A stretch of 64,000 nt of DNA from Morinoia aosen (Eukaryota > Arthropoda > Malacostraca > Amphipoda > Talitridae). The stretch is taken from positions 52,916,859 to 52,980,858 of the forward strand of contig CM059575.1 of NCBI GenBank assembly GCA_030386875.1. The letters are read 5' to 3'. The first letter of the stretch is position 1, and each line of letters starts with the position of its first letter. Positions 1 through 52,833 of the stretch are shown one piece after another. Position numbers and translations under genes: made by a program. The notes below the pieces were generated by a model. That model made no database searches and was not told the origin of the DNA. It was given only the letters and a program-made list of their open reading frames with translations.

Positions 1-1434
1 GGGCGTGGTCTCCACTCGACATCAGTCCTCGAGGGTGCAGTGGGGCATGAATTTTCAATTGTCGTTTCATCTGGATTGGTACACACCTCACTGAAAACTT
101 GAGCCTTTACTTTTGAAAAGAATGTGTTGAAATCCGTGGCTGTTGCCAAGGGATTTTCAAAATTACTTATGCGATCTAAATTTTCATATGGGGCTACCTC
201 ACTAATGATTTCCCAAATTCGCTTCGGGTTATTTTTAGCCGTTATCGGTGCCTGGTGGAAGTGAGTTTGTTTCGCTTCAGTGATTTTCTTTTGAAGAATT
301 TTTTCATGTTCTTTATATCTCTTGTATAAGGTACTGTTTGATCTATTGTTTTTGTACTCTCGCAAGTTAGCTTTCTTTATTCTGCTCATCTCTTTAACTT
401 CGTCAGTAATCCAAACAGTCCGTTTTGGCTTGGTTTTTTTGGTGACGTAAGGTGCACATTCGTCGAGAGCTGGTGTGAAGTTCTCGTTGAAGATTGACAC
501 TTGTATGTCAACATCGTCAGATTGCATCATTTTCTGGAATTCGGTAGACCTATCGAGTAGTTTTTCTTGAAATAGTTCTGCTGAATAGTGCCTTTTCGAG
601 CGATAGGTCATTAAGCGGTATTTTTGTCTTTCCTTCGCAATATTAATTTCACATTCTATAGAGTGGTGATCGGAAATAGAAGGAGATATTACTGTACTAA
701 GTATTGCGGTGGGATTATTTGTGATTGCTAGATCGAGGAGAGTTGCAGAGACTTTAGTGATGCGAGTCGGTTCTTTGACCATTTGTGATAAGCTTAGTTT
801 ATACAATAGTTTGCTTAGCTGATTATTTTTGTCCGTTAGGTCAACATTGAAATCTCCGAAAGCAAAGAATGATTTTTTTGCCTGAAGGATTTCTTTGAAG
901 GTTTCCTCAATGAAATCTAGTGTTAGATTTAGGGGAGACGATGGGTGCCGGTAAAGGCTGCCAATGATTATTGATTTGTGTTTATTTATTTGCACTTCTA
1001 ACCAAACCATTTCAATGCCTTCGCAAACTTTATTAACTAGTAGTGAAGATGTTGAGTACATTTCTTTCACAAAAATATAAGATCCACTGCCTCTGCTGGT
1101 TTTAGCGCCATCGTAGCGGTACAACACGTAATCAGGAATGTTAAAAAATGAACTTTGGGTACGTGAATCAAACCATGTTTCTGAGACACAAAATGTCAAT
1201 TTTTTCAGTGACCAACATTACTCTGATTTCATCCAATTTACCATTCAGGCTTCGAGCATTTACATGCTTGATGTTGATTTTACCTATATTAGCACTCTTT
1301 TTAAAGGTAGTGAAGTTACTATCTCGATGGGATCGTTCAGGGGATTTATGGATTTTGTCTAAGTTGCCCAGGGTGTTTGGCCCAGCATCTGCTATGTAAG
1401 AAAGTCTACTATTTGGCTGGGCAGCGGCACTCTG
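1..1434 (-). pseudogene. AP endonuclease region of OTU-LINE copy 1, decayed
   Basis: Minus-strand translation in the OTU frame continues into N-A-R-S-L-N-G-K-L-D-E and D-I-L-C, the start of an apurinic-type endonuclease, and further left keeps recognisable blocks collinear with copy 2 (G-D-F-N-V-D-L region near 850, S-D-H-H-S near 675, W-R-P-R-P at the window edge). Several in-frame stops lie around 1010-1160, and frame changes are likely. The family role is nicking target DNA to prime reverse transcription. No full-length product is possible from this copy. Confidence 0.7.
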
Positions 1435-1914
1435 TCAAGATGAGGTAACCCCGGTCTGATTTTTGCCTTGTGTGACAAGAGCACTGTAGTGATCGTTTTT
1501 ACGATGGAGCAGTAGTGGAGGGTTATTATTTGATAATTCTGAATTGGGAACGACTGATATTTTCCAAACACAATGATCCTGTTCATCCAGGACGAGAAGT
1601 TTTTGGCCTGTCACATTTGAAATGATTAGTGGTATAAGGTCTACAGCAGCTTGGTCAAAATGTTTTTCGTCAATGTAATTATCTATTAGGTTTTGCATGT
1701 CGCCACTGTTCTTGTCAAAAAACTTAGCATATGTGCTGTTGTTTGCTTTACTCTCTGTTTTGATTGCAGCCTTTAGGGAATTGTAATTCCATTTTGATGC
1801 TGGTTGTTTTGTAAGTAGATGAGCTACTGCGTGAAGGAGGCAGTGTCCATCGGCTTTGGTGGGAATCAGTTTTATGTTCCATGATCGTTTCAATTCATCC
1901 ATTGTGGAATTCAT
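1435..1914 (-). CDS. OTU-like cysteine protease domain, N-terminus of LINE ORF2
   Basis: 159 codons. Residues 22-25 are D-G-H-C followed by L-L-H-A-V, the OTU catalytic cysteine motif; near residue 145 lies D-H-Y-S-A-L, the expected catalytic histidine motif. Spacing and surrounding text match copy 2 (DGHC at residues 15-18, DHYSAL about 130 residues later). OTU-family proteases are deubiquitinases or processing proteases; the substrate here is unknown. In copy 2 the domain is fused directly to the endonuclease. In this copy a TGA after V-T-S-S separates it from the endonuclease, which continues in the same frame downstream. The start ATG overlaps the ORF1 stop (ATGA, 1911-1914). Confidence 0.75.
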   Translation of the reverse strand: MNSTMDELKRSWNIKLIPTKADGHCLLHAVAHLLTKQPASKWNYNSLKAAIKTESKANNSTYAKFFDKNSGDMQNLIDNYIDEKHFDQAAVDLIPLIISNVTGQKLLVLDEQDHCVWKISVVPNSELSNNNPPLLLHRKNDHYSALVTQGKNQTGVTSS

Positions 1915-3974
1915 GCGTTCACAAATGCGGCTGGAGACGTTTTTTTCGCACTTTTTAAATCATTAAGAGGTTCTGAGAGGTGCGGGGAATTTACGTTTTT
2001 CTGGCTCTGAATTCCCGTTCTGTGGTGATTTCTTGTATGGGGATTTGCAGAGAACTGAGAAATGCTCGTGTCAATTATATTTTTCTGGTGATGATTGTGC
2101 ACACAGTTGGGTAGTGGATTTTCCATCGATTGTCGACTGCAATTTTGCAGCGATTTCTCTCTTCCTGTTGATTTCACTGCTTCCGAGTATGTGATTGGAT
2201 ATTGATTTATACTCGTGTCTGAGAGGGGCTTTTCATCCTCTTCATCAGCATTGGACAGCAATGAAAACCTATTTTTTGTAGGCACTCCGCAATTGTTTGT
2301 GGCGGATGCCGGAGAGTGCTTGTTACATGAGGGCAAACATCAGGAGGAGAGGGGAGGAGAGGGTTTGTTATATGAAGGCAAACATCGGTCTATGCTGCTG
2401 GAGGTTTCACGTGGATAGGCGGTCAACTTAGAACAATCATTCAACTCATTTTGCTGTTTTGCATAATCATTAGAGTATTCAATTTCTTCATTCAGATCAT
2501 GGGAGTTTCTGACACAGGAGATAAAATGTGAAGTTAGTCTCAAAGGTGATTTTAGAGCAATTTGTTGAAGAAAATGATGCGTGTCTTCTCGCGTAACGGG
2601 CCAAGTGCGGACATTGTTGTAAGCTTCATTAACAGGACCGGTTTTTACATTTGCTCGCAGCGGAATCAGTTTAAGACCAATTTTTCTGCACAGGCTCGAT
2701 GCCATGTACAATTGCTGCCCACTGCAGGCGCTCACCACATAAATACAAGAAAAAAGATTCTTTGTCATGATCAAATTTTTTAACTTGTTGAGATTATGGG
2801 ACGAGAGGCTCAAGCCTTTGAAACTAATTATATAGTTCCTGAAAGGAGGTGCGCGTTCAATCTCATCATAAAGATCATTAAGACGTTCCGAAGTTATGGT
2901 CTGAATCCTGCATGCGCTATCAATGTCATCTCCGTTGATTTTTGTGAGACTATTGTCTCCAACGAGAAAAGTGTCCAGAGGGGATTTCGCATAATGATGG
3001 TTACTCGCAGCTACCACCGGCGTAAAATCATGAGCGCTGATACAATAATTTAAAGCAAAAAGCTGTTCTGTAATCATTTGAATATTCGATATAGTGGAAA
3101 AAATCGGAGCTGGGCTTGGGGGACAATTTTGTCTCAAAGCTTTATTGAGAAATGCAGCTGTAAGAGACAGCATGTTATTTATTTCGTGAATAGTTTGGGA
3201 GCTGGTCATTTGGAGAGGATGTAAGTACCCATCAAAAGCTTTAGCAGGTCTGTTTGTATTGTTCTCCACTGAAAATTTTAAGTTATCCTCGCAGTTTACG
3301 CTCTGAGGTACTTTACTGCCAGTGTCAGCTGCCGCGCATGCATTTTCAAACCTAACTCCACCGCCTGAAAGGCCTGCACACAATTTATCATTAAAATTAA
3401 AATTAAAATTACCCATTTTAGTCTCTGAATGGTTCCTCACATCGAAAATTTTATCGCGTTCCAACGTTGATGTCGGTGTCGTCGTCGTTGGTGAACAATT
3501 TTGAGCTTTCTCAGTGACGCAGGACAGGGGAGATGCCGCCATGACGCAATCGTTGGGACGAGACGAAGGAGCTAGCGGTGGTGCTGTGGCAGCTGGCGCC
3601 AGTGATGAGGTACAAGCAGCGCTTGGAAGATTTTCGTCAAAGACGGGCGACTCTGCTGCTAGATTCTCTGTCGGGCACCTCTCCGTCGATTCTCTGTCGG
3701 TCGGCACTGGTGATGTTTTGGGAATTGCGGTGCTTTCGTCGACGTCATACCGTTTCTCTGTCGGAGTTTTTGTAGTCATTGTGAGCGGCTTAGGCTTTTG
3801 AACGAGCGATTTTACACGCGAGAATTTTGGTGGATTTTGCTTTCGTTTTCTGAACGGTTCAGATATATTCCGCTTTTTGGGGTTTGAGTTTTCATGCGGC
3901 GCTGTTGTGACGGATGTTATTTCTCCAGATAGAGCTGCTTTCCGAGTAGCTGAGCGAGTTTCGTAATGAGACAT
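1911..3974 (-). pseudogene. ORF1 of OTU-LINE copy 1
   Basis: About 687 codons starting at the ATG at 3974 (M-S-H-Y-E-T-R-S), preferred over the upstream near-cognate start at 4019. The N-terminal half is low complexity: basic at first, then rich in Pro, Ser, Thr and Ala. The C-terminal part (about residues 250-530) looks globular. I see no CCHC zinc knuckle and no L1-like coiled coil, so this is not a standard gag-like ORF1, and I do not recognise the fold. One in-frame TGA at 2340-2342 lies inside an imperfect tandem duplication of about 46 bp (near 2321-2341 and 2367-2387), which probably created it. The frame ends in TGA overlapping the ORF2 ATG as ATGA. Role inferred only from position: RNA-binding partner of ORF2. 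Confidence 0.6.
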
Positions 3975-7158: not shown

Positions 7159-7190
7159 TGTGGTGGTATGAACACACACCACCACAACCT

Positions 7191-7742: not shown

Positions 7743-7968
7743 CCAAGACGTCATCTGTCACTGTATTACTCGACTGTAATATTCCCTTGTGCCATTATTG
7801 TCGGCGATCTTCATAATAATACGGCGTTTATTCCAGTTGTGTTTTCCTCACCTTGCCGGTTCGTTTGCATCTCAGGCACTCACTTCGGGCATAGATACCA
7901 CAAAGTCTAAAGATATTTACATAGTCTGCCCGGAGTGTAAAGCAGCCTGAGGGAGAACACCACAGGAG

Positions 7969-13668: not shown

Positions 13669-14823
13669 ACCTATTTTTTATGCAATGGCAAGTCAGGTCA
13701 TTCTGTGCAAGAGTGCCGCACCTCACGAAACTAAACTCAGAGCAGTACCCAGACATCAAATGCCTTCAAGAGACCCACTTCGCTCCTGGCGCTCGCTTCT
13801 CTCTTAATGAATACTCACAGCCCGCTGCTCGCTGTGAGTGGGTGTGTGGGGGAGGCGGTGGTGTGATGGTGCTCGTCAAAAACGAGCAGCCGCCTACTAT
13901 CCTCACCATGACCACATCTCTGGAGGCATGTGCCGCACGAGTCTTTCTTTCTAACTTTACGAACACTGTCTGTTTACTCTACCTCCCTCCCTCACTTCCT
14001 CTCACTGTCCTACAAGCTGAAATTCCCCTACTACTGCAATTGTTGCCCCGCCCATTTCTTAAATGTGTTGACGCAAACGCCCACCATCCATCATGGGGAT
14101 CCCCACAGGCTAACTCTAGGGGAGACTTCATTGATCAATGGCTAACCGACAACAACCTATATCTCTTGAATAACAGTGAACCTACGTACCAAAGCTCATC
14201 TGGCAAATATACCCACATTGACTCGTCTATTGCTACCCAAGAGGTGGCGCCTCTACTGACATGGCAACCCCATAGCAGCCTCAGTACGAGTGACCACATA
14301 CCCATAATAATAACAACTGCCCTCCCAGCTCCCCAAACGGAACTTCCGAGATGGCAGCTAAGGAGAGCCAACTGGGCAGCGTACCGATCGCCTCTCACTC
14401 TCCAGACCGAATTTCTCTCACCAACACAGGCTTGCGGTGCCATCACGACAGCCATAATGAAGTCTGCTCTGGAACTTGTCCCGACAACCCCCAGAACCAA
14501 ACCCCCTCAGCCAATTTTGGACTCTTCGACGCGCTGCAGCACGCCGAACCAAAAGCAGAGCACTCTCAAAATACAAAAGCAACTTAGGAAACATGTTACT
14601 CTGGATCGCATTCAAACGCACCAGAGCTGTTTTTCGATCCACAGTCCTCGAGGCGCGTAAAAGTAGCTGGAGCACTTTCCTGTCCACGATGAACAAGAGC
14701 GCAAACAGCACCACTGTATGGCGGGAAATTCGCACCTGGCCAACAATTGCTCCGGTGAAATCAATCTTGCTTCAAATAAATAACTCCATCACAGCTAACC
14801 CTAACCAGTCTCAAACGAACTAG
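13662..14823 (+). pseudogene. AP endonuclease region of LINE C ORF2
   Basis: ORF2 begins M-L-N-L-F-F-M-Q-W-Q at 13662; the Asn of the usual Q-W-N is replaced by Gln. Further endonuclease motifs: C-L-Q-E-T (Glu), G-G-G-V-M-V-L-V, D-A-N-A-H-H-P-S-W-G-S, T-H-I-D-S, T-S-D-H-I-P. A frameshift near 14510 moves the frame to the stretch ending in a stop at 14821. The family role is nicking the target DNA. From 14824 to 15160 the linker to the RT is disrupted. Confidence 0.75.
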
Positions 14824-16301
14824 CTACTCACTTCGCCGGACAAAGTAACGGTAGAACTCAAAATGCAGCATTCGAAGCACACCAAAACACAGTTGCAGCC
14901 TCACTCCCCGCTTTTACGCGCAGACCTACTTCCTGGTATAACTCCGGATTTGAAACACACGAACTAAGACGAGCAATTTCAACCTCCATATCCAAGGCTC
15001 CAGGCGCAGACAGAATCCCTTTCTCATTTCTACAGCATCTCAGTGACCACCAAACACAGGGTCTGCTTAATTTCTACAACTACCTCTACGACACTGGTTT
15101 CTCCTACCAATGGAGAGAGTCAATAATCATACCGATCCTCAAACCTGGCAAAGCAGCAACCTTGGCCACATCTTATCGCCCTATTGCCCTCACAAACTGT
15201 CTGTGCAAAGTGATGGAACAAATGATTAACTGGCGCCTGCAAGCACTCCTCGAAAAAACATCTTTCTACAACCCGTGCCAGAGTGGCTTCAGAGCCGAGT
15301 ACGGCACTGCAGATGCACTAGTAAGGCTAGAGACTTCAATTCACGAGTCCTTGTTCCGTGGGAGCTTTTGTGTGGCGGTCTTTCTCGATATATCCAAAGC
15401 CTTTGACTTTGTGTGGCATCTTTACATCTATCTGAAGCTTCATACAATAGGCCTCGATGGCAACATAACTTGTTTTATAGCCGACTTCCTGAAACTGAGA
15501 ACTCTGAGAGTCCACATAGGAGATAGGCTATCCTCGTCCCATCCGCTCTACGCTGGTGTTCCGCAGGGATCTGTGATAAGCCCAACACTTTTTCTAATGC
15601 TCATCAATAACCTTTTCTCAAATATTCCCCGAGGCATGGAGTACTCGCTGTTTGCAGATGATGGCGCTATGTGGGTGACCAGTCATTCTCTACCAAACGC
15701 AGATGCCCTAATGCAGCAGGCTCTGCATAAGATCGAAGAGTGGAGCAACAAGAGGGGACTTTCTATATCCCCTACCAAAACGACAGCCATCGTTTTCACT
15801 CTGAACTGTCCTAACGCTATACCCCAACTCTTGTTGAATAATACTCCTCTGTCGTATGTGAAAACAGTAAAATTTCTCGGAATGACCCTCGACTCCCACC
15901 TCACATGGGGCGAGCATATTTCTAGTCTCGTCTCGCGAACTCAAAGCGATCTCCGCCTTCTCTCCACCATTGCAGCCAGGAGGTGGGGCGCTGATTTTTT
16001 CACTCTCCGCCAACTTTACAACACACTGATCCACTCCAAACTTGATTATGGCTCTTTTCTTTTCTCCACTGCTGCGCCATCACACTCGGCACGCCTCGAT
16101 CGTGTGCAGTACGCCGCGGCTAGGGTGATGTTAGGAGCTCTGAGCTGTACTCCGACAATAAAACTCGAAGCTGAGGCAGATCTAACTCCTCTCCGTGTAC
16201 GACGTCGGCATCACTCTCTGGATACTGCTCGCGTATTCTTTCCCTCCCAGATACTTAACTTGCTTACTCCTTCTAAACTACTACCTGTTCCTGTTTTATA
16301 A
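14824..16301 (+). pseudogene. Reverse transcriptase of LINE C
   Basis: Open over 15162-16301. Motifs: S-Y-R-P-I-A-L-T-N near 15170, Q-S-G-F-R-A near 15280, F-L-D-I-S-K-A-F-D near 15384-15410, G-V-P-Q-G-S-V-I-S-P-T near 15556-15588, S-L-F-A-D-D-G-A near 15645-15669, F-L-G-M-T-L-D thumb near 15870. Both motif A and motif C aspartates are present. The frame stops at 16299-16301, ahead of the SINE. Confidence 0.8.
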
Positions 16302-17689: not shown

Positions 17690-19640
17690 CGCGCCGTACC
17701 AAAAAAAATAAAAAAGTAAGTACACCAACACCGGCGTGCCTTGTGGCGACTGGTAAACCAGATAGTGATCTGTGAATCTTGTAACAAAATGACACCGGTA
17801 AAAAGAATTGTTTCTGAATTATTAAGTGAAAATTTTTGGTTAAAAATAAATAGTGTCAACGATTGTGGATGAAATACCCCTGTGCGAAAAGCACACAGTG
17901 GGGAAACCTGACGGCCTAAACCCAAAGGCCAGTCAGTCGGTTAAAGGCAAGAAGCCGTCAAGCACTCAAACTTCCTACAGTGTTCGCGCCTCACCCTCAC
18001 TGGCAAGCCGGAACAAAAGGCGTCAACGATCTCCTACTGTCTCAAGTGGTTCTACCAAAAAGATAGCTACGATGACAACTGTTCATGCAAATGAAATACC
18101 AGCAGAGGATTTTTGCGAATCTTCGGAAAAGAGCGGAATCATCTCCGATGAAGATCCCGAGACAAGAAAAAATATTTCCAGCACATCAACTGTTTGCACC
18201 AATAAACACTTAGAGAAACCAGCAACAAAGGAAGTAGCTCCAAAATCAGCTCGAGGTGATTTAAACACACCAGAGCACATCCGAAAACTGGCTCCAAACA
18301 TGCGCCAGGTTCTCATCACAGCTGTGGACAAAACGCGCAACATTGCAATAATGAACTCTATTCGTGCTGCACTAGCTCTGGACAAGCTGTGTGACTCAGT
18401 TAAAAAAGTCGAGCATCAACACTCTGGAGCCATTCATGTGTCTAAAAACACTTACGAGCGAGTAAAATCTCTGATGGCTGCCACTACAATGTTCGTATCT
18501 GGGAACACTATTAAAATCTTAATTTCTATTGCCTGGTCAACCCAGTTTTCTTATGGCAAAATCTATGCACCTGAGTTTGCTTCGGACACCCTTGAAGACC
18601 TTCTAACTATGCTGAAGCCCTATAATGTGGTAGGCATCCGCAAACTGCTGCTAGACCCCAACAAAGCGCCAGTTCCTCTGTCTGTGCTGACATTTCTTAA
18701 TCCTTCTCCTCCTGCTGAGTTGCTCCTTGGGTATTGTGTTTATAAAATAGATAAATACTACCCTATTCCTTTGAGATGTGGATTGTGCTGCCATTATGGC
18801 CATTCTCGAGCCCAGTGCACAAGTCGACTGCCAATTTGTAGCCATTGTGGTCACAAGGATTATTTTGTAGACCCGTGCCCAAACCTGTCTGCTCCTCCAT
18901 CCTGTTCGAACTGCAAAGAACCTCATCAGGCTACTTCACGTGAGTGTTCCCACTGCATGGCTGAAGTCAGAGCGTGCCATCTGACAGCAGATGAGGGTTT
19001 GAGCTTTGTGGAAGTTAGAGCCAGAGCAAGAGAAATGAGACCTTTGGAAGCAGTTCAATCCAACCCTCCAGTTCAGAACTTGGAAATGCCAAGAAGACCT
19101 ACAGTAAAGAAGCTGAAATCTCTGCAAGTTTTTCCTACGCTTACCCAACTTTGGCGCAAGAGGATGCAGCCTCTATTCTGCCCTCTCAACAAACTTTTTT
19201 GACAACCAACATACTTTTAACAGATCAAAATAGTACTAGAACCTTTGCAGCTTGTGCATCCATGCCAAGCACTCCATCTGCATTTTCTACTCAGCATGTC
19301 CTACAGCCTTCTACTCAGACACAGCCAGCATCTTCAGGCCAACAACCTAGCCATTCGAGTGCCATGAACCCTTTGCATCCAAGCAGCTAAGCCAATCAAT
19401 CATCCCTTCTTGCATCTCATCAAAATTTTCCTGATTTCACTCGACTAATTACTCAGGCTCTGCCAATGATTATCTGTCTCTTTCTCTCCACGCAACTAAC
19501 TGAAAAAAATAGAATGTTTCATTGAGTTAGGTCAGATGCTCTCCGTAAAATCAGTTGTCACTGAAACTCTAGCAAGTCTAGGGCTTTCCTCAAAAACAAC
19601 AAACAAAGAACCGTTTATTTCCAAGTTGCCACATGAGATA
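17690..19640 (+). pseudogene. Gag-like ORF1 of I-like LINE D
   Basis: A start-like M-T-P-V-K lies at 17782 but its frame ends near 17861; the gag frame is then open 17853-19202 (449 codons) and, after a frame change, 19151-19390, with related text to about 19620. The core matches other I-like gags here (V-G-I-R-K-L, S-V-L-T-F-L, Y-K-I-D-K-Y-Y). Knuckle 1 (C-G-L-C...H...C) is intact, knuckle 2 lacks its His, knuckle 3 (C-x2-C-x3-H-x6-C) is intact. Probably the first ORF of the element whose ORF2 begins at 25869, the two being separated by a repeat block and OTU-LINE copy 2. Confidence 0.7.
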
Positions 19641-19693
19641 CATGCCAACATATTGGCTTTTAAAAGTTTCTTAATATAAGACGTCCTGAAACA

Positions 19694-20047
19694 AAAGTTC
19701 CATACGAGGAGTATTAATTGACAAACCATCCGATGTGTACAAATAGATAGACCATACGAGGCATATTAATAGACATAATATACGAGGCGTACTAATAGAC
19801 AAACCATACGTGGTGTGCTAATGGTCTAACAAAGTTCCATACGAGGAGTACTAATTGACAAACCATCCGAGGTGCACAAATAGATAAGCCATAGGAGGCA
19901 TAATAATAGACAAACTATACGAGATGTACTATTAGACAATACGATCAGAGGTGTACAGATAGATAGACCATACGAGGCATATTAATAGAAAAAATATACG
20001 AGGCGTACTAATAGACAAACCATACGTGGCGTGCTAAGAGTCTAACT
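19694..20047 (+). repeat. Minisatellite, ~26-bp subunits with ~137-bp higher-order period
   Basis: Repeats of the type 'ccatacgaggcgtactaatagacaaa' with variation; the block beginning 'aaagttccatacgagg' recurs at 19694 and 19831. About 13 subunits in all. Confidence 0.8.
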
Positions 20048-20117
20048 CTGTCAAGGGTAGTTGAATGAGAAATGAGAAATATTATCTCTTGGATATTTTA
20101 TATTCCAAGAGATTCCG

Positions 20118-20260
20118 GTACAGCGCTTATTGCGTTTTTCCTACTTCGATAATTTCAACTAAGAACTTGGGAGTTTCGAAGAATTCTTTAGTAGTTTTCG
20201 AATTATTTATAAGATTATCGAAGTAGGAAAAATACAAAAAACGCTCCACCGTACTAGATT
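20118..20260. repeat. Imperfect inverted repeat (hairpin)
   Basis: 'gcgtttttcctacttcgataat' near 20137-20160 faces its complement 'attatcgaagtaggaaaaa' near 20213-20240; the arms extend outward to GTAC pairs (about 35-40 bp per arm with mismatches) around a loop of about 55 bp. Confidence 0.7.
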
Positions 20261-20339
20261 GAAACACCACCGTAAATGACAATCAAGTATTGAGAAAAAG
20301 ATAGTCTCGAAATTATTTGTAAAGAACATCGCGCAACAC

Positions 20340-22300
20340 AGCACGCACATCTAGAAATGCGTAAACAAACTTACACTCAAAAATGAAATGCCTGGCTTTT
20401 ACGGCATACAAATAAAGAGATAATGTTTGCACGAGCGCTTTATTTTATTTGTCTGTTTATACTTTTATTTTCTTCTGTTTATTACTATACTTTTATTTTC
20501 TTTCTGCGCAGAGCTTTAGGTAAAATGTAATGAGCCTTGAGGTTTTGCTTTTTAAGCAAAAAGTAGAAATAGAAACCGATATATGTACATGTGCGCATAT
20601 ATGTGTGCGAAACGTGTGCATGTTTACACTGATACATAGACATTTATGTTTGCGTGCGCACACACATACTCATGCACATACTAACACACATATTCACATA
20701 TATACGTACTGAAAATGAATATAAGAAAAATGCTAATAGACATGAAAAGTAATCTTGCTCTTTCAATATTTAAAATGACAGCCAAAGCTCTGATGAATCG
20801 TAAGAAATAACCTGAGGAAAGATAAGGAATAGAAAAAGGACTTCGAAAAACGTATAAATGGAATGGTTTTTTAATTTCCTAAAGGAAATTTTAAGAAAAA
20901 TCAAGTTACCGCCGAGGAACAACAACAAAAAAGAAAAAATAACATATCATATATTCAATATATCATATCTTCTCGATATTCTCTGCAACATCATGCGGAC
21001 ATGGGTACATGATATAAAATGGAGATACAGTGTAAGCCATGGCAGTTACCACTCATGATTGACAAATATCTACAAAATTTTGGCAGAAATGCGCAAACAA
21101 ACATATACTCAACATCATAATTTATAGCTTGTACAACATACGGACAGAAAGATAATTTTACCACGATTCATACGCTCAAATTGCGATTAATTTCATTAAT
21201 TGTATTTGTCATTAATCCGATACACAGATACGCCCTCTGGGGAAGTGAGAGATCTATTTTTGAATAATTTCGCTAGTGCAATAAAATTTATTAAACGGAT
21301 GGTTTTTGTGTAAAGAAATGAAATAGAAACATGTATATCTATTTATGTAGATATATATACCTACATGCGTACACACACATATTAATGTATATACTTATTG
21401 AGAATGAAATATAAGAAAAAAATACATATATAAAATAAAAAGATAGAAACAACCTACCATCTATTACACCGATAACGACAGTTGAGCTCAGTGTAATCCT
21501 AAGAAATTTTTCAAAAAAAAATAACTAAAAGGAAAAGAAGACTTCGAAAAACGTAAAATGGACTGGTTTTTAGTTTCTTCATAGAAATTTTTAAGAAAAC
21601 TCAGGTTACAGTCAAGAAACAGCACAACTCTTCAGCGTTATACGGACATGTGTTCATGGGATAAAATGGAGTAACATTGTAGCCGGATATCACATCTGAG
21701 TGGAGAATATTTACAAAATTTTGCACATATAGGTAGATTAAGCAATGGTCCAAAGTGATAATTTTGATTACAGAAATTAACAGTTTTTTCCGATTTTAAA
21801 GTTTAGTGCTAGTGTGCACTGAACGCACGGAAAGATATGAAAGGAATAAATGAAAATGCTTGAATTACCCCCTCCACCCAGCGCAGCCGAAATCGATTGA
21901 AAACGTCTTCGAGAATGATTTTGAAATAGCGAGACAACGTTAGCCAAAATTTAATTCATTATAAACTTTGCACAACCCTCAAATCTATAAACCTGTATAT
22001 TGGTGTACACACAAAATGTCTTTCAGAGTATGTTTTCCATACGGATGTTAAATATTAATACAGAAAAGAAAAAAAATAACAAAATAAAGATGAGGAAATA
22101 CTCCTAACTATGGAAAAAACGTTCTTTCTGGTGTATTGAAATCACGGCTGGGGTGCTCATTATTGTCGACAGAAATAGTTAAGATGATTATACGAATGGC
22201 TTAGCAAACGTAAAATGAAATACTTTCTAATTTTCTAACAGAAATTTCAGGAAAATTAAAATTTCTGGTAGATGGGAAATTCACACCGAAATGCTGCCGG
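20340..22300. repeat. AT-rich block of diverged ~700-750-bp tandem units
   Basis: No gene seen. Landmarks recur about 700-750 bp apart: 'gcgtaaacaaacttacactcaa' (20359) with 'gcgcaaacaaacatatactcaa' (21090), and 'gacttcgaaaaacgta' near 20840 with a copy near 21540. A weaker third copy of the second landmark lies near 22200. CA/TA-rich simple sequence lies near 20580-20710 and 21330-21400. Origin unknown; it lies between LINE D gag and OTU-LINE copy 2. Confidence 0.55.
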
Positions 22301-22319
22301 CCTATGACAGGGATGCAAA

Positions 22320-23404
22320 ATGACGTGACGCATTTACTCTAAATTCTTTTACAGTTTTAGAGTTTTTGATATGCTGGGGAAGCTTGTTCCACAAAAAAGC
22401 TCCAGAAACTGGGAGAGCTTTTTGTCCCACGTTAAATGAACGGGAACTGACTAAAACATCATTCCTCCGATTTGTTTTTTTGTTTGGGATATTAGATGGA
22501 AAAATTTTACCACCTCTGCATTACTTTGGGGGAGGTACAGAGAGGAGAACACTCGCCGAGCTTTTTGGATCATGAATCTGTTCGGTATTGGGATCCAGTC
22601 GAGTTTTCTTAAAAGAGGGGTGACATGATCGTATTTATTGAAATTTCCTTTGCATACTACTTTGGCGGCGAAGTTTAGACATTTTTGCAACTCTTCCTGA
22701 CGATATTGAGGTAAATTTCCCCACACAAGACTGCAGAAGTCCAGGCGCGATAAAACTTAAGACTGAATCACTAATAATCTAGATTTTTCGTCAAGTGTGT
22801 TCTTAATGCGATGAAAGAACATTAAGGTTCCGTTTATTTTGTTGCACTTTGTTTCGACGTGTGAATTGAAAGTCATATTTTTTAGAAACACCCAGATTTT
22901 TTACCTTCTCTACTAGTTCAATTTTATCGTCTCCAAATGTTAGCTTGAATGGGGGTGAATTTTTAGTCGCATTCTGTGACCCAAAAACAATGCATTGCGT
23001 TTACTTGCGTTAAGTTTGAGACCATTATGGTCATACCACAATTTCAGATTTCTCAGAAGGTTTTCAGCGTTGGCTTGTGTTTCTTTTAAATCCGCTGTTG
23101 AGCTTGTCATGGCAATTTGTACGTCATCAGCATACATTGAGATTTTTGTGTTTGCCGGCATGGTATGGAAATCATTGATGAAAATTGAAAATAGGAGCTG
23201 CCCGATGAATGAACCTTGAGGAACGCCAAAATTATTTGGTATGAATGATGACATTTTGTTATTCTAGCACACTGCATGAGGGCGGTTTAGTAGGTAGCTT
23301 TCAAACCACTGAGTGTCTATTCTGAGGTTTGAATTTTTTTTTTAGAAGCTTCCTATGCTCAGCACTGTCGAAAGCTTTGGAGATCACAAGCAATAGTAAG
23401 AGAG
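22320..23404 (-). pseudogene. RT palm, thumb and C-terminus of OTU-LINE copy 2
   Basis: After the frameshift the RT continues as S-K-A-F-D-S near 23360, but the catalytic motif A Asp is replaced by Val (L-L-V-I-S-K-A-F-D). Then G-V-P-Q-G-S near 23216-23230, M-Y-A-D-D-V near 23125-23140 and the thumb L-F-L-G-H. The C-terminal block (22451-22726) and the final F-R-V-N-A-S-R-H-F near 22330 resemble CR1/Jockey ends. At least one further frame change lies between 23360 and 23254, and another before 22726. Confidence 0.75.
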
Positions 23405-25723
23405 TTAATTTTTTTGGTCAATATCATTGTAAATTTTTTCTGTTATGTTTAACAGGGCGTCCTGAGTACTGCAATTCCTTCTGTAAGCATATTGATTGCG
23501 ATGCAGTAGATGTGACTCGTCTATGTAAGACGAGAGCTGGTTTGTTATTACTTTTTTTAATATTTTGGACATAACAGGCAGGAGACTGATTGGTCTGTAG
23601 TTTGACGCTATGTCGATATCATCAGATTTATGTAATGGCTTAATAATTGATAATTTCAATTGGTCGGGAAACTTGTTTGTGGCTATAGATGTATTTATTA
23701 TCAAGCGAATGAGGGGTGCTGTGACAGGGAAGCTGTCTTTTATATGTTGGAGGCTTATGCCATCATGTCCAGTCGCTTTGGTATTCTTTAGTGAGTATAA
23801 GATTTTTCGTATCTCTATGACGCTAACCGGCTTTGGTCTCCATTTGTTTCTACTATTTGGGGATGATACATCGCTCAGATTTGCCCCTGTAGATGTGTCT
23901 GAAACTGTTCCGGATACTTCATTGAAAACATTTTCGCCAACTTTTGAGAAGAAAGTATTAAAGTCATTAGCCATTTTTGAGGGGTTGTCAAAAGTGCTTT
24001 TGCACTCCGAATTTTTATACTGAGCAACTTCTCTAATGATTTCCCAAGTTCTTTTTGGGTTTTGTTTTGCCGCCAAGAGTTCTTTGTGGAAGTAGTCCCG
24101 TTTTGCTCCCTTAGCTTTTCTTCGTAGGATCTTCTCATGATCTTTATATAATTTTCGACGCATACTGTCTGATTTATTCAGTCTGTACTCACGCTGCAAA
24201 TTTCTTTTAGTTCTGCTCAACTGTTTTATCTCATCTGTTATCCATTTAGAAATTCTTGGCTTAGCTTTCTTCGTAGTGAAAGGTGCGCATTCTTTAAGAG
24301 CTGATACGAAATTTTCGTTGAAAAGCGAAACTTGTAGATTGACATCATCGGTGTTTTCCATGCCTTGAAATTCATTCCATCTGTCTAATAGCTTTTCTTG
24401 AAATATTTCAGGGGAGAAGTGGTTTTTCATGTGATATGTAATGTAACTAGATTTCTGTTTCTCTTTTGTAATATTTATTTGGCATTCTACCGGATGGTGA
24501 TCAGAAAAGGACGGTAAGATTTCTGTACCGAGTACTGCTTGGGGACTATTTGTAATTGCTGGGTCAAGAAGAGTTTTGAAAGCCTTGGTAATTCGCGTTG
24601 GTTCTTGGACCATTTGAGAAAGATTAAGTCTGTGCAGCATCTTGCTTAGCTCATTGTTTTTATTTGTCAGATCTACGTTAAAATCTCCGAAAACGTAGAA
24701 AGATTTTTTGGCTGCAGAGATTAATTTAAACGTATTTTCAATGAAATCTAATGTTGGACGTAGAGATGCTGACGGATGTCTGTAAAGACTGCCGATAATG
24801 AAAGACTTGTGTTTGTTTACTTGAACATTGAGCCAAACCATTTCTATGTCTTCGCATTTTTCTTTTATCGGAAATAAGGATGTAGAGTAGACATCTTTGA
24901 TGAAAATGCATGAACCAGTACCTCTATTACTCTTGACTACGTCATAACGGTACAATGTGTACCCGGCAATGCTGAGATATGAGCTTTCGACTCGTGAATC
25001 GAACCATGTTTCAGATACGCATAAAATATCGATATCGTTTGTGATCAACATTACTCGTACGTCATCCATTTTACCATTGAGACTGCGAGCATTTATGTGC
25101 AATATTTTGATATTATTTATCTCAATAGGCAGATCTTTAGTGGAGTTATTGCATTTTTTAGGTCTAGCAGGGCATTTAGTATTCGTCTCAAGGTCTTTAT
25201 TGCCGCGTTCATTGTTTGTGATTTCAGCTTCAAATTCAATTTGATCACTGTTATTTAGCCACAAAATGGGGGAGGGAGCAACACGATTTTCATCACGCAT
25301 TTTCAAGAGGGCGCTATAGTGGTCCTGTTTCCGGTGTATGTTTACCGGAGGACAGTTTATCAGAGCATTCAATATAGGGGAGATTGTCGTCTTCCAAATC
25401 CCATTGTCTCTTTCATCAAATATGTGAATTGATGTTCTCGTCACATTAGAAAGTATTTGGGGTGTGAGGTCTCCAACTGCGTGATCGAAGACTTTTCTAT
25501 CGATGTATTTATCGATGAGTTGTTTGAAACTGCCACTGTTCTTGTCAACGAATTTTGCATACTGGTCCTTGTTTCTGGAGCTCTCAGTTTTGATGGCTTT
25601 TTTCAGAGATGCATAATTCCATTTCGATATTTGTTGTGAAGCAAGCTGCGTCGTTACGGCGTGAAGGAGACAGTGTCCGTCACCTAAAGTGTAAGCAGGC
25701 TCCATGTTGAGCGATCGTTTCAA
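23405..25723 (-). CDS. OTU protease-AP endonuclease-RT fusion (ORF2, first 772 codons)
   Basis: One open frame. Residues 1-155 are OTU-like, with D-G-H-C at 15-18, then L-L-H-A-V, and D-H-Y-S-A-L near 147. About 205-430 is an AP-type endonuclease with H-I-N-A-R-S-L-N, C-V-S-E-T-W, G-S-L-Y-R-H-P, F-G-D-F-N-V-D-L and S-F-S-D-H-H-P-V. RT fingers follow from about 640 (K-A-T-G-H-D-G-I, K-P-L-H-K-S-D-D-I, S-N-Y-R-P-I-S-L-L-P). The start shown is the first ATG; the frame is open about 12 codons upstream without one. The frame ends at a TAA created by a shift in an A-rich run near 23411. An OTU domain is unusual for a LINE; a role in protein processing or deubiquitination is inference. Confidence 0.85.
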   Translation of the reverse strand: MKRSLNMEPAYTLGDGHCLLHAVTTQLASQQISKWNYASLKKAIKTESSRNKDQYAKFVDKNSGSFKQLIDKYIDRKVFDHAVGDLTPQILSNVTRTSIHIFDERDNGIWKTTISPILNALINCPPVNIHRKQDHYSALLKMRDENRVAPSPILWLNNSDQIEFEAEITNNERGNKDLETNTKCPARPKKCNNSTKDLPIEINNIKILHINARSLNGKMDDVRVMLITNDIDILCVSETWFDSRVESSYLSIAGYTLYRYDVVKSNRGTGSCIFIKDVYSTSLFPIKEKCEDIEMVWLNVQVNKHKSFIIGSLYRHPSASLRPTLDFIENTFKLISAAKKSFYVFGDFNVDLTNKNNELSKMLHRLNLSQMVQEPTRITKAFKTLLDPAITNSPQAVLGTEILPSFSDHHPVECQINITKEKQKSSYITYHMKNHFSPEIFQEKLLDRWNEFQGMENTDDVNLQVSLFNENFVSALKECAPFTTKKAKPRISKWITDEIKQLSRTKRNLQREYRLNKSDSMRRKLYKDHEKILRRKAKGAKRDYFHKELLAAKQNPKRTWEIIREVAQYKNSECKSTFDNPSKMANDFNTFFSKVGENVFNEVSGTVSDTSTGANLSDVSSPNSRNKWRPKPVSVIEIRKILYSLKNTKATGHDGISLQHIKDSFPVTAPLIRLIINTSIATNKFPDQLKLSIIKPLHKSDDIDIASNYRPISLLPVMSKILKKVITNQLSSYIDESHLLHRNQYAYRRNCSTQDALLNITEKIYNDIDQKN

Positions 25724-25868
25724 GTCGTCCAGTGTGTCTGCAACTCGTGTGCAAATTTGATTCCCTGTTTATTTTGCGGTAGCAGTGTCGGTTCGGTCGT
25801 TCGACATATGCCTGGAAAATACTGGACGGAGGCCTCACTGGACAGAGGCCTCAATGCATAAATCGCAA

Positions 25869-28800
25869 TGAAGCTAAAAATTTCACAGTAGAATGTCCGA
25901 TCCTTTTCTGCACGATATCCTTATTTGACCAAACTACTGGCAGACTCAACTCCGGATGTATTGTGTTTGCAGGAAACGTTTTTGTCTTTTGATAAAAATG
26001 TAAAACTGGCCGGTTATCGAAGTTTGGCCGCTCGTTGCGAGAGAGCTCTGGGAAGTGGAGGGGCGGTTCTTGTGGCCGTCAGTAACAGCATACCGCAAAC
26101 TATTATACAGCTGCCATCGTCGTTGGAAGCATGTGCCACACGCATACATCTTCCTCAAAATGAATTTACAATATGCTCTATGTACCTTCCACCATCGCTG
26201 CCAAACTCTGTATTAATCGCAAAGCTACCACTTTCACTCTTACTTCTACCCCCTCCTTTCATTATCTTAGTTGACTCTAATGCCCATCATCAATCATGGG
26301 GTTCCTGTTCCTCAGACAGCAAAGGAAATGCTATGAGTCATTGGGTAACAACAAACAACCTCGTACTGCTGAATACCACGGAACCAACTTTTTTGTCCTC
26401 AACAGGCACCTTGACTCATATAGACCTGACAATAGCAACCCCTGATATAGCACTTATGTTTACAGGGTCACCCTTATTAGACCCTTACAACAGTGAACAT
26501 TTTCCTTTGCTGATCTCATCAGAGTGTGCCACACTAGTCTGCCAACAACCAAGGTGGAACATCAAATCAACTGATTGGGTCAAATTTTAGGAAATCATCT
26601 GCCTTCCAAAGACCTACCTATCCCCTACGCAGGCATGTGGAGCTGTAACCACAAGCATCATAGATGCAGCTTCTAAATCCATCCCTTGCTCTATACCAGG
26701 AAAAAGAACACCAACAAATAATTGGTGGAACGAAGAATGCGCCGTAGCAAGGCGCCAAAAGCAGCGAGCGTTATCTCGTGATAAAAATCATTTAGGGGAC
26801 ATTGTCTTATGGATAGCCTTCAAAAACGCCAGAGCTATTTTTAGGCACTGTATAGCCAGAGCCAGGTCAAAGAGCTGGACAGACTATCTGTCTAGTATTA
26901 TACGTGCAGAGCCCACAGTTGACAAGTCTGGAACAAAGTCCAAACACTATCTGCAAAGTTCTCCTCCAAAGCTATAGTTTTAAAAAAATGGAATTGATAA
27001 TATAACAGACCTCAAGTTGATCTCAATCATTCTTGGCCGGCTATATTTTAGAGAAAATAACTCCACATCAAAAGACCCCATTTCATTGTTAGAAAGGAAA
27101 AAAATCACGTGAGCTGCCTTGCCCACAACATAACTCAAATGAATGGTACAATAAACCTTTCACAATGAGAGAACTAACTAGAGCACTAAGCAATTTCTCA
27201 TCTCGAGCCCCCCGGTGCTGATCACATTCCCTTCAGCTTTCTTCAACACCTCAGTGGAAATCACCTTGAGGAACTATTGAACTTCTTCAATTTCTTATTC
27301 ATGCATGGATTCCCACACCAGTGGCGGGCAGCCATAATACCCATGCTGAAACCTAGTAAACCATCCTCTTCTGATGCAGTATACCGCCCTATTGCACTCA
27401 CCAACTGCTTAGGCAAGGTCTTGGAAAAGATGGCAAATTGGCGCCTCCAGTCATTCTTAGAAAAAAACTCCTACTACGACCCAACTTAGAGTGGTTTTAG
27501 AGCAGGGCAAAGTACACTTGACGCACTGTTTTGCCTGGAGACTTCAATAAGGGAAGCTTTACTGACTCAAAATTACTGCCTAGCCATTTTCCTTGACATT
27601 GAGGGAGCTTTTGAGTCTGTTTGGCATGATGCTGTTTTATTCAAACTGCATGAACTTGGTCTCAATGGTAATATGGCCGTCTACATCAAAAATTTCCTAC
27701 AGCTCCGATCTATACGAGTGAGAGTTGCTGATAAGCTGTCAGACTCTTTTCCTTTTCTGTGTGGAGTGCCTCAGGGATCGGTCATAAGCCCCACACTTTT
27801 CACACTTATCGTAAACGATCTTTTTGTAGATGTACCTGCTCCTGTACAACACTCTCTGTATGCTGATGATAGAGTCACGTGGATTGTCACCCCAACTCTC
27901 ACTGAGGCAACCACAGCAATGCAAACTCCACTGAACACTATTGGAAAGTGGTCCCAAATGTGGGGTCTTCAAATCTGAGTAGCCAAAACTTCAGCTGTTT
28001 TGTTCACCCATAGGCATGACTCACCTCCCAACTAAAGTTGGAAAACGTTCTTCTAACCTTCAAAAATAACATAAGATTTTTAGGCATCACTTTTGATAGG
28101 CATTTAACATGGAGGCCCCACATAACTTTATTAATTGCACTCTTTATGGCAGTCAGATCTTAGACTTCTCTTAGTCATTGCAACCAAGAGGTGGGGTGCT
28201 GATGCCACATCCCTTCGTAGATTGTATATAGCTCTGGTTCGCTCTAAGCTCGATTATGCCTGCTTTCTATGTGCAACTGCTGCTCCCACTCATCTTCTAG
28301 TGTTGGACCGCATCCAATATGCAGCAGCACGCATTATCAGTGGCACCCTGAGGTGCACACCCACAGTTAAACTGGAAGCTGAGGCACAGCTTATGCCTCT
28401 TGCATATCGCCGCCGCCAATTGCTGTTGTCTTATTGTGTTCGAATTCTCACCATCTCTGAGCACCCGGTCCGACAACTGTTGTTGGCCTACTACCCTTAT
28501 GCTCTCTATGCTCACCTTAGGCGTCCAATCCCTATATCAGGCCGAGCCTACTAGGTCTAAATTTTTTCCAGAATCACACAATTCCCATTCACTTGAGATA
28601 TCATTCAGCCCAAAGCCCAGTCTTTCTGACATAAGCAGACGTTCAAAAACATTCAAGGAATCCCACCAATTAGCAACAAATGCTTAATGACCTCGTTATA
28701 ACTCATACAGTATGCACCAAATAGTCTACACAGATGGATCTGTCCAGAATGACAAGGCCGGATGTGGAGTGCATGGGAAAAATTTCCAACTCAAGGCCCA

Positions 28801-33693: not shown

Positions 33694-36600
33694 TTATATT
33701 TGATTGATGATGTCAAGTTTGTCCAAAAAGTTCACTATCAGTTCATGATTAACGAAGCCACTCAGAATATTTTCCAAGTTGAATTGAAATTTATTTGCAC
33801 ATGCATAGTTCTTTAAATTAATTCTTTGTGCAGCGTATGCAGGGCAGTCAATCACAATGTGTCCAACACTGAGCACACATTGGCATTGATGACACAAGGG
33901 CTGTGGATCTCTTGTATAAAGATAATTATGAGTAAGTTTAGTGGTAAGTAGTGTGCATCGCGTCAAAACCACTTGCTTTTTGCGCGATACAGAGGAATTT
34001 ACCATTGGCTCCAGTTTAGATTTGATTGTATGGTATTGGCTAATGCTCGAGTCCCATGCATCTTGCCATTTTTCTCTGAAGTGTTGCCTGACATGAGGTA
34101 TGAGATCAAGGTGTGGAAGATGGGGTAAACAGATTGTTTCCAGGTTATATGCTGCTTTTGCCAGTTGATCTGCTTTTTCATTTCCCATGATACCCATGTG
34201 GCTGGGAACCCACTCAATGATTAATTTCATTGGGGGTAGACCTTCATACCTCCTCTTGATTTTAGGTATCAGGTAGTGGTTGGAGGGAAGTATTTGGTTG
34301 AGGGCCTGAATAGCACTGTATGAGTCAGTGAACAAGACAAAATTTTCTGGTATCTTTTCAATGTATTTTATGGCATATAAAATAGCCGTGAGTTCTGCTG
34401 TGAAAATGGAGGCCCTATCTGGAAGTCTTGCCATGATATTGGATTCACTCGACCAAATGCCAACTCCAACTCTGTGGTCGTGTTTAGAGCCATCTGTATA
34501 TATTTCCTGTCGTGTAGTATACTGTGCTTGAGTATGTTTAAATAGAGCTTTCCACTGATTTTCGCCTAGTGCATCCTTTGGGTATGTTTTTAGATGGGAA
34601 AAGCATTTCATATCAAAAGTTTCATATTTGTCAGAGGCCTGGGTAGGTCCAATGCAGTTTGATTTAATGCCCAATTCTTGTAGCAAGTGGAATATCCGGC
34701 CTGTTACTGGAAGAGGGTTTGGGTTATGTTCAAAGACATGGAAGGGGTAATAATCTTGGATTAGCAATGCAACTGGGTGACCAGGGACACTAAGTGCTCT
34801 GAGAGCATACTGACACAGCTGTTTTTTCCTTAAGTACATCAGTGGCATCAAGTTTGCCTCTATTTCTAGATGAGTTACCTTGGTACATCGCATTGCACCA
34901 AGAATAAAGCGCAGTGCTGCGTATTAGATTCTGTCTAAAGACAGCAAATGAGATTTACAAGCAGTGTCAAAGAGAAAACATCCATATGATAACTTTGGCA
35001 AAATTATGGAAGTGTAGGTTTTCATTAATATGTCAAAATTGGCTGACCATTTCATATTTGAAAGGATGCGAAGAAGTCTTAGGTCTTTATGACATTTCTG
35101 GGTTACATCTTTTATGTGTGGACCCCACCGAAGTTGGGCATCAAGAAGCAGACCAAGAAATTTATACTTGGGGACAAATTCCAAGTTTACATTCTGATAT
35201 TTCAAGTGGAAAGGGGGCTTAGTTTTTTTGTGAGTGAAAATCATACATTTGGTTTTCTCTGGAGAGATTTGAAACCCCCAGGTTTGGGACCAAACAAGAA
35301 TAGCATCTAAGGCATCTTGCAGCATGCAAAGTGCTTCAGTCAAGTTAGAGCAAGTAACCCAAACAGCACCATCGTCAGCATAGAGGGATGTCTGTAGTAG
35401 TGGGTTACAGTCTTGGAAAATATCATTTATCATGATGTTGAACAATGTTGGGCTATTCACCGATCCCTGTGGAACACCCGACCTTAGGAAACACTGCTTG
35501 GATAGGGTGTCATTGATTCTGACTCTTATTCTTCGCTCCTTGATGAAAGACATTATGGTTTGAGGTAGGTTACCTTCAAGTCCTAAAATCTGTAGCTTTT
35601 GCAATAGACCATAATGCCAAACAGTGTCGAAGGCCTGTTTTATATCAACAAATATTACAACACAAAAGTCCTGCAGGGTTATTGCTCTCCGAATGGAGTT
35701 TTCAATACTCGTGAGTCCATCCAGAGTGCAACGCCCCGCTCTGAATCCACTCTGATTCTCGTTCAAGCATTTGTTTTGTTCTATATATTTTAGAAGTCTC
35801 CAGTTTATTATTTTCTCATAAAGCTTGCACAGTACATTTGTGAGTGCTACTGGTCGGTATGCTCTTGGGTCTGTTGGCACTTTTCCTGGTTTAAGGATCG
35901 GACATATTATGGCCTCCTTCCACTGCTCTGGGATTTCTGAGACCCAAACTCTATTAAAGTAATTTAGTATGTATTTTGTCTGGTCTTCATTCATATGTCT
36001 AATGAATTCTAGAGATATTGTATCTGGTCCGGGTGCTTTAGTTTTAGAGCTGATTATTGCTCTTTTGAGCTCTACCATAGTGAGAGGACGATTGTAATCA
36101 TGCTCTGTATTAAATGAAAATGAGATAGGAATTTGTTCACAGATGTTTCTATGTTCATCAAATATTGGATCATGAGACTCTAAGTTGTTATTCGAGGCAT
36201 ATTGGTCCACCAATATGTCAGAAATTTCCTTTAGGCAAGTAATTATTTCGTTGCTTGAGTTTTTGAGCACAATTTGTCCCCGGCTTTGTTTTCCCTTTAT
36301 GGCTTTAATTTTGTGCCAAACCTCCGCTGGAGAAGAGGTACTGAGGCCTGACACAAATGCCTTCCAGCCGTTGGCTTTAGCCTCTTGTACTGTTTTTCGG
36401 AAAATTGCTCTTGCTTTTTTGAATGCAATCCATTTCTCAATGTTCCCTTGGTGATTTTTGTAATGGTTGTATGCCTTATGATATTTCCTATGGGCTATCT
36501 TGCAATCTTTAATCCACCAGCAATTAGTCCTTTGTAGTGGTGAACGGCTTTGACTAGCCCTGATGTTACCTTCAGTTGCTGCCAGTATAGCTTTGGCTAA

Positions 36601-37380
36601 GGATTGATAAGCATCAGATATTGACCTATCTGAGCAGTTCGTAAACACTAGAGCTTTTTCGAATTTCGGCCAATCTGCACTGCGCAGGTGCCATTTTCTT
36701 GGTAGTTGTGCCGTGGGAAATGCTAAAGTGGATTCAATTATCAGTGGAAAGTGATCACTTGTAAAAGTATCGCTACAAGTGTTCCATGTAAACTTAGAAT
36801 GCAGGTCCTCAGTGACTATTGTTAGATCTATATGAGTATAAGTACCTCTGGAGGACAAGAAGGTTGGGGCAGTGTTATTCAGTAATAATAAATTGTTTTC
36901 TGTCATCCAGTTCTCTATTATTTTACCCCTTGTATCACTGAAGTCAGATCCCCAGCTATAGCTGTGAGCATTTGAGTCCATCATAATAATGCTGGATCCT
37001 GTAATCTGATTGCTGATGTCCTGTAACTTCTGCATTAACCCATTACTTTCCAAATGGGGAGGCAAATACATATTTATTATATTGATAGGCTTTTTGTTGA
37101 TAAATATTTTGCAGAGCACGAGTTCTAATGGTGTAGTCAATTGTGTTGTTATGTTTGGTATACTGGAGTGAATAAAGGTAATCACCCCACCTCCTCTACC
37201 TTCCCTTCTTTCATGTCGGGAAGGACTGCAGTAATTTTTCAATTTTATGTTGTGGCCTCCTTGTAACAATGATTCTTGAATACATATGATTCCTGGATGA
37301 TGTTCATCAATAAGCAAGTGAAGGTATGGTAGTTTTTCAAAGTAGCCTCTAAGATTCCACTGTAGGATTGTTAAATTCAT
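33694..37380 (-). pseudogene. ORF2 of LINE A: endonuclease, RT, RNase H
   Basis: 1228 codons with one in-frame TAG (34924-34926) where L-D-R-I is followed by a stop; LINE B has Gln there, so it looks like a single C-to-T change. Endonuclease (residues 1-225): L-Q-W-N, C-I-Q-E-S, D-S-N-A-H-S-Y-S-W-G-S, T-H-I-D-L, T-S-D-H-F-P. RT (about 480-760): Y-R-P-V-A-L-T-N, Q-S-G-F-R-A-G, F-V-D-I-K-Q-A-F-D, G-V-P-Q-G-S-V, S-L-Y-A-D-D-G-A. RNase H (about 960-1090): Y-T-D-G-S, F-T-A-E-L, F-T-D-S, G-N-E-K-A-D. C-terminal C-x2-C...H...C near residue 1160. All expected catalytic residues are present. Confidence 0.9.
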
Positions 37381-39234: not shown

Positions 39235-39450
39235 TGGGTAGGTCAATCTTTCAAGGACTTTCAGCAGTTCATTTCTGATAGGATCCAAAGTTACCAACGT
39301 AAAATAGGCAAAAAAGGAATTTCAAATATTGGGGTTTTTAGGCTCACTTGGGAAAATTATCTGAGGGCTGAAACAAAAACAACATAAGTTGGTAAATGCC
39401 GAGGGCCCAAGGCCCCAGCGGTTTCAACGCCGGTAATATTACCTTAAAGA

Positions 39451-45369: not shown

Positions 45370-45373
45370 TGTA

Positions 45374-52832: not shown

Positions 52833-52833
52833 T

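Follow-up and report, generated by a model that had tools for sequence, protein, structure and literature searches.

Two LINE copies with an OTU domain

The window, a stretch of 64,000 nucleotides from the talitrid amphipod Morinoia aosen (assembly GCA_030386875.1, contig CM059575.1, positions 52,916,859 to 52,980,858), contains two copies of a long interspersed nuclear element (LINE) in which an OTU domain lies beside an APE-type endonuclease (EN) and a reverse transcriptase (RT). Copy 2 belongs to family A of this element and copy 1 to family B. Their parts are listed below with the evidence for each; positions are those of the whole window, ORF stands for open reading frame, UTR for untranslated region, and L012 is a family-A locus from the genome search described in the next section.

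Copy 2 (family A)
25769..25805, minus strand: ORF1 remnant preceding the OTU domain, where the match runs out; contains an in-frame stop (blastn/tblastn)
25262..25768, minus strand: OTU domain and flanks, the C-terminal end of ORF1 (Pfam OTU)
25259..25261, minus strand: TGG at the position of the ORF1 stop, followed by CTA at 25256-25258 (sequence)
22305..25258, minus strand: ORF2 (endonuclease and RT), broken inside the RT and beyond (tblastn, Pfam)
19630..22304, minus strand: 3' UTR with 3' tandem repeats (blastn to L012; repeats in L012); the outer boundaries are approximate, and the match is interrupted between 20082 and 20958

Copy 1 (family B)
1948..3974, minus strand: the remainder of ORF1, which begins at its ATG (MSHYETR...) and is interrupted by a stop (tblastn, sequence)
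1438..1947, minus strand: OTU domain, the C-terminal end of ORF1 (54% identity to the family A OTU)
1435..1437, minus strand: in-frame TGA, then CAG, between OTU and ORF2 (sequence, translation)
3..1434, minus strand: first part of ORF2, from the endonuclease on, truncated at the edge of the window (tblastn, Pfam)

An earlier note on this DNA had described OTU, endonuclease and RT in a single frame. Such a frame is indeed present in copy 2, at 23405-25768 on the minus strand: it runs over 787 codons from stop to stop and comprises the OTU domain (PF02338, 28.1 bits against a cut-off of 23.3, E 3.2e-6), the APE-type endonuclease (Exo_endo_phos, 26.7 bits) and the start of the RT, within which the frame breaks (RVT_1, 29.2 bits, just below the cut-off of 29.6). 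The OTU region is 91% identical to residues 627-807 of the L012 ORF1 frame, and ORF2 shows 87% identity by tblastn over ORF2 positions 1-922, the rest continuing in another frame down to 22305. The copy is 5'-truncated, its blastn/tblastn match to family A ending at 25804-25805.

The related OTU of copy 1, at about 1438-1947 (minus strand), retains the DGHC and DHYSAL motifs, and the parts around it are decayed, both as the earlier note had reported. Its ORF1 has an internal stop and, before the OTU, a frameshift: a run of 7 instead of 8 A at 1940-1946 (minus strand) shifts the frame at the OTU start. In ORF2, the frame changes near 1183-1217; Pfam recognizes Exo_endo_phos_2 (34.2 bits), and tblastn identity is 62% over ORF2 positions 79-476 and 43% over 6-81. 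Beyond copies 1 and 2, the OTU profile had no match in the six frames of the window (stretches of at least 30 residues, E up to 1).

The OTU domain ends ORF1 in genomic copies of both families

The genome (2.0 Gb, 29 contigs) was searched with the OTU domain, the best 150 of 1842 candidates being scored, and with the OTU-endonuclease junctions of family A (best 150 of 4667), family B (best 150 of 5254) and copy 2 itself (150 of 5487), the TGG codon at 25259-25261 being written as X in the last query. The scored lists favour the best-preserved copies, and those for the A and copy 2 junctions partly overlap. In a first set of 20 fetched family-A loci, OTU is the last domain of the ORF1 frame, whose stop-to-stop length is 807 codons in 10 loci, 806 in 4, 864 in 2, 825 in 2, 837 in 1 and 851 in 1. 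This frame closes with the tail of OTU, ...DHYSALLKMRDENRVAPSPIL or a close variant of it, followed by a single TGA and then, in the same frame, by ORF2; an unbroken ORF2 frame of 987 codons stands right behind one in-frame TGA in 11 of the 20 loci. The Pfam OTU match reaches 31.3 bits in both L012 (residues 667-766) and L016 (residues 724-823).

In family B, the ORF1 frames have 891 codons and ORF2 has 988 codons (L049). The two families are 66.9% identical over 981 aligned positions of ORF2 and 54% identical over the 158 codons of OTU. ORF2 of L012 and L049 matches RVT_1 (130.3 and 132.4 bits) and Exo_endo_phos (38.8 and 28.6 bits), and no RNase H family was found there by Pfam up to E 1. 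By this layout, with an APE endonuclease and RT and without RNase H, the element is a LINE, probably of the CR1/Jockey-type group.

The codons at the junction are TGA CTA in 28 of 28 family-A loci (L001-L028) and TGA CAG in 20 of 20 family-B loci (L029-L048, of which L036 is copy 1), against TGG CTA in copy 2. Among the best 150 matches to the A junction, all have exactly one stop, TGA; in 50 of them the frame read through this stop has at least 1785 codons, with exactly 1795 in 31 cases and exactly 1852 in 10. No match among the best 150 to the B junction lacks a TGA, and in a few there is an additional stop. For the junction of copy 2, TGA is present in 149 of the best 150 matches, and the sole stop-free match is the window copy itself.

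The frame from OTU through EN to RT is thus uninterrupted in the window because TGG replaces TGA at 25259-25261, and this fusion is a private TGA-to-TGG point change in one 5'-truncated, otherwise broken copy. The earlier note placed OTU at the N-terminus of ORF2, as the open frame of copy 2 from OTU into the RT would indicate. That placement is hardly credible in view of the TGA at the same point in the scored matches and in every A and B locus inspected: the domain is the C-terminus of ORF1, with TGA lying between it and the endonuclease. The same applies to copy 1, where OTU was said to start ORF2 and is separated from the endonuclease by the TGA at 1435-1437. As for other genomic copies with OTU in frame with EN and RT, the domains are indeed in phase, but a TGA interrupts all 149 of the other scored matches.

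Some further features of these elements were recorded. The 5' UTR of family A is 1.5 kb long (L012 1053-2575) and holds 29 ATGs; its start in L012 matches a second 5' UTR stretch of sister copies at about 79%, in a monomer-like manner. The 3' UTR of L012 (7964-9901) contains tandem repeats of 26 and 78-81 bp, and AATAAACATTT occurs near the 3' end of L016, L020 and L027. The middle of ORF1 (about residues 335-440 of the L012 frame) carries LLLGDN in family A and LVGDN in family B, which may correspond to the GDS block in the esterase of certain CR1/L2 ORF1s, the Ser being absent; as no esterase match was given by Pfam in this part of ORF1, the likeness is no more than a lead. One contig carries four family-A junctions at G000:C24:79690906-80089152, which share a 1317-codon frame and are spaced by about 130 kb; this suggests a repeated large segment. 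Marker searches of the genome gave 115 matches to cuticle proteins (PF00379), as would be likely for an arthropod and perhaps for a non-insect, and none to coagulogen or to insect odorant receptors, the controls for these two being uninformative.

An in-frame UGA-C and an ORF2 without an early AUG

Families A and B, judged by their sequences, share the OTU domain, the in-frame TGA-C and an ORF2 without an early ATG. In both, UGA with C at +4 is in frame and flanked by coding sequence on either side. A reassigned genetic code was considered as the source of this codon and rejected: in four long LINE frames at other places in the window the final stop is the only one, and the 1795-codon read-through frames have a single TGA within the matched stretch. 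A third relative was also sought. An old, decayed endonuclease fragment at 49833-50406 (minus strand) is 50-60% identical to family A; used as a genome query, it retrieved itself as the top match, and the others among the 150 scored matches were 65-68% identical to it. Because some of their places are shared with the family-A lists, we took these as family A rather than as a third family, and no third independent junction was obtained. As to the stop itself, the human consensus for high readthrough is UGA CUA (G), with C the leakiest base at +4 (PMC4973966), and UGA CUA is used by Sindbis virus (PMC4973966; PMC12233894).

ORF2 has its first in-frame Met at residue 64 in family A and at residue 73 in family B, in both cases after the NARS motif (residues 56 and 59, respectively), where the first catalytic Asn of APE-type endonucleases is located. 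Translation starting from that AUG would yield a protein without NARS. The stretch from OTU to the endonuclease is open in the ORF frame, while the other two frames contain stops; by base shuffling, the chance openness of the two pre-endonuclease stretches is 0.030 and 0.041. Family A and family B are poorly alike here, with 17% identity in the tail after OTU (12 codons) and 24% in the part before the endonuclease (46 codons).

Identity of the OTU domain and selection acting on it

The OTU of family A scores 28.1-31.3 bits against Pfam PF02338 (cut-off 23.3), whereas that of family B alone reaches 21.3 bits, below the cut-off. All 13 aligned sequences, which represent the two families, share Asp30, Cys33 and His150; His150 was assigned by motif, as most Pfam matches end near profile position 100 of 128. 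Among solved structures, the best match is VCPIP1, an OTU deubiquitinase (E 0.0015, profile positions 11-76), a weak similarity confined to the N-terminal part and covering DTL(D/E)D(L/I)KR and GDGHCL; EschOTU and OTUD7B follow with still weaker sequence matches. No relatives were found in viral and prokaryotic contigs, and the only PHROGs matches were weak ones (best E 0.0069), to two families whose function is unknown. An AlphaFold2 model from two window sequences had a mean pLDDT of 45, too poor for assigning the fold or placing His and Ser.

Selection was compared between families A and B as the ratio of nonsynonymous to synonymous divergence (dN/dS, NG86), with segment limits set by the analyst; the ratios are rough because dS is near saturation. 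The OTU domain has a ratio of 0.15 (dN 0.39, dS 2.6; 158 codons), the endonuclease 0.08 (232 codons) and the RT 0.07 (320 codons), taken separately as the earlier note had proposed. For the linker before OTU (113 codons), identity is 31% and dN 0.81, with dS undefined. The OTU thus forms an island of constraint, its ratio of 0.15 standing against unconserved flanks. Within family A (L012 versus L016), the OTU difference is too small to use (dN 0.003, dS 0.010), and the N-terminus of ORF1 has a ratio of 0.67. Overall, the OTU domain is real and, by these sequence comparisons, looks constrained, in line with the earlier description of a LINE bearing an OTU cysteine-protease domain.

A possible route to ORF2 and its alternatives

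The in-frame UGA-C, together with the AUG-less ORF2, points to readthrough of a retroviral style. We consider it probable that ORF2 is produced by readthrough of the UGA as an ORF1-OTU-EN-RT fusion, which would represent a gag / gag-pol logic in a LINE. Most ribosomes would terminate at the UGA, which by its sequence looks leaky, giving ORF1p-OTU in bulk, and a minority would read through it to give the fusion; we infer both the readthrough itself and its rate. OTU would most likely work as a deubiquitinase that shields ORF1p and the RT-bearing fusion, a role in the ribonucleoprotein (RNP) that fits a domain present on every ORF1p molecule. More tentatively, it could strip ubiquitin from these two products, or from host factors, and thereby stabilise the RNP, while self-cleavage freeing EN-RT may be an additional role.

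Several observations weigh against readthrough or against an active enzyme. The UGA CUA of family A is followed by A, not G, and in family B the UGA is followed by CAG, not CUA. Predicted RNA folding does not exceed that of shuffled sequences, either in five stretches from or just after the stop (z -0.09 to -0.75, the last value for a family B stem, GCCCAGC/GCUGGGC, of 7 bp at 12 bases from the stop) or in two stretches straddling it (z +0.36 and -0.43). Independent support for the kept stop comes from only two lineages, A and B, and not from hundreds, because the scored copies descend from few masters. With regard to the enzyme, the third catalytic residue of OTU proteases is Asp or Asn two residues after the His, as is the catalytic Asp153 of the nairovirus OTU, and a Ser occupies this place after the presumed catalytic His (HYS) in 13 of 13 sequences. 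Lastly, family B has three near-cognate codons before NARS whose -3 base is a purine and whose +4 base is G, namely CTG, ATC and ATA at ORF2 codons 22, 28 and 50, which could, from their context, serve as non-AUG starts.

These codons would suit the production of two separate proteins, in which a non-AUG codon behind the ORF1 stop serves to start ORF2, through reinitiation or internal initiation, and no fusion is made; termination-reinitiation has been documented or proposed in LINEs, for SART1 (UAAUG) and L1 (PMC5972666). We regard this as unlikely, since neither family has an in-frame AUG ahead of the first motif of the endonuclease, none of the nine near-cognate codons that precede NARS in family A combines a purine at -3 with G at +4, and reinitiation needs no shared frame, although in each family ORF2 shares the frame of ORF1 and is open directly past the stop. 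A fusion made by readthrough could, on the other hand, be a self-processing polyprotein, cut by OTU to free EN-RT, as with the OTU proteases of tymoviruses and arteriviruses. Such processing is conceivable, though we rather doubt it. OTU does adjoin the junction; the catalytic Asp of the nairovirus OTU is replaced by Ser in Tymoviridae, whose PRO is a processing OTU (PMC3744425), which recalls the HYS of the LINE; and equine arteritis virus PLP2 and turnip yellow mosaic virus PRO both process polyproteins and act on ubiquitin (PMC3968130). The linker between OTU and EN is, however, unconserved between the families, with no conserved site seen, and there is no ubiquitin-like cleavage motif, as neither the L012 frames nor L049 contain a GG dipeptide; moreover, the alignment of His and Ser is by motif only, given the poor structural model. 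We are likewise doubtful, and somewhat more so, of the combined form, a retrovirus-like polyprotein made at a fixed ratio by reading through the UGA-C stop, in which OTU would both trim the fusion and deubiquitinate the RNP.

OTU might also be a captured passenger that is retained for the structure of ORF1 and does no enzymatic work. The atypical third catalytic residue and the sub-threshold Pfam score of family B would agree with this, but the invariance of the Cys, the Asp of DGHC and the His, and a dN/dS that contrasts with unconserved flanks, make it a distinctly improbable account. A programmed frameshift at the A run where the family B OTU begins was rejected as well. The run has 8 A in L046-L048, 7 in L029-L044 (16 of 20 loci, in a list selected with a 7-A query) and 6 in L045, and L046 and L048, with 8 A, are open upstream over 531 codons. 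In family B, 7 A put OTU out of frame with ORF1; we read this variation as slippage.

Comparison with known systems

How the ORF1p:ORF2p ratio is set in LINEs has been asked for a long time. The protease of murine leukaemia virus (MuLV) lies after the stop, whereas in the present LINE the protease-like domain lies before it. The likeness to MuLV gag-pol is that an in-frame stop precedes the polymerase, which in the virus is read through to a fusion (PMC5009743, PMC4973966); the virus differs in using UAG with a downstream pseudoknot (PMC5009743), in place of UGA-C with no significant RNA structure. Routes described for LINEs include StopGo 2A in those of trypanosomes and sea urchins, with coupling or reinitiation in SART1 and L1 (PMC5972666), and frameshifting for the gag of HeT-A (PMC5009743); Zorro3 of Candida has non-overlapping ORFs and requires the first ATG of ORF2 (PMC1965478). 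Readthrough would add another route beside coupling/reinitiation, StopGo and frameshifting.

LINEs of the CR1/L2/Jockey group resemble the present element in having two ORFs, with APE then RT in ORF2 and a modular, variable ORF1 (PMC4120745), for which types I-V have been distinguished (PMC4120745). The text of that paper does not contain the words 'OTU', 'protease', 'stop codon' or 'readthrough' (PMC4120745). Among the titles and abstract beginnings listed in searches of open-licence literature, none describes an OTU LINE or a LINE ORF2 made by readthrough, which is weak evidence, Repbase lying outside this search. A cysteine protease is found in the NeSL/Utopia LINEs, where it is Ulp1-like and N-terminal and accompanies a restriction-like endonuclease rather than APE (PMC4640811). 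OTU occurs in other transposable elements, Ginger1 and Helitron/Helentron (PMC2836005, PMC4067079); these are, unlike the LINE, DNA transposons, with OTU C-terminal in the transposase (Ginger1) or in an additional ORF (Helentrons).

In tymoviruses, similarly to the LINE, the OTU of PRO/DUB lies upstream of the polymerase in a replication polyprotein (PMC5967125) and has Ser in place of the third catalytic residue (PMC3744425). Tymovirus PRO cuts the polyprotein and shields the polymerase from ubiquitin-dependent decay (PMC5967125, PMC3968130). The two are nevertheless unrelated types of element, and processing, established for PRO, is no more than a possibility in the LINE. Placed at the junction, an OTU domain would tie the RNPs of LINEs to the ubiquitin system, a connection that tymoviruses also show. 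A LINE that bears OTU, keeps an in-frame UGA-C in two families and has no early AUG in ORF2 is, in our view, of greater interest than a simple fusion of domains.

Other elements in the window

At least four other LINE copies with EN-RT frames lie in the window, at 34924-39321 (minus strand), 51243-56513 (plus), 12421-16301 (plus) and 25892-28133 (plus). Some of them have a cysteine/histidine-rich ORF1, and one of the frames starts on the opposite strand to copy 2, some 90 bases away from its 5' end. A further decayed EN-RT element at 42749-45400 (minus strand) is about 27% identical to family A over the first matched stretch, with no match to the OTU profile near it. Elsewhere, a 252-codon open frame at 7152-7910 (plus strand) has a translation that repeats QQPHRSALAPQPRSVSPTTVGP three times.

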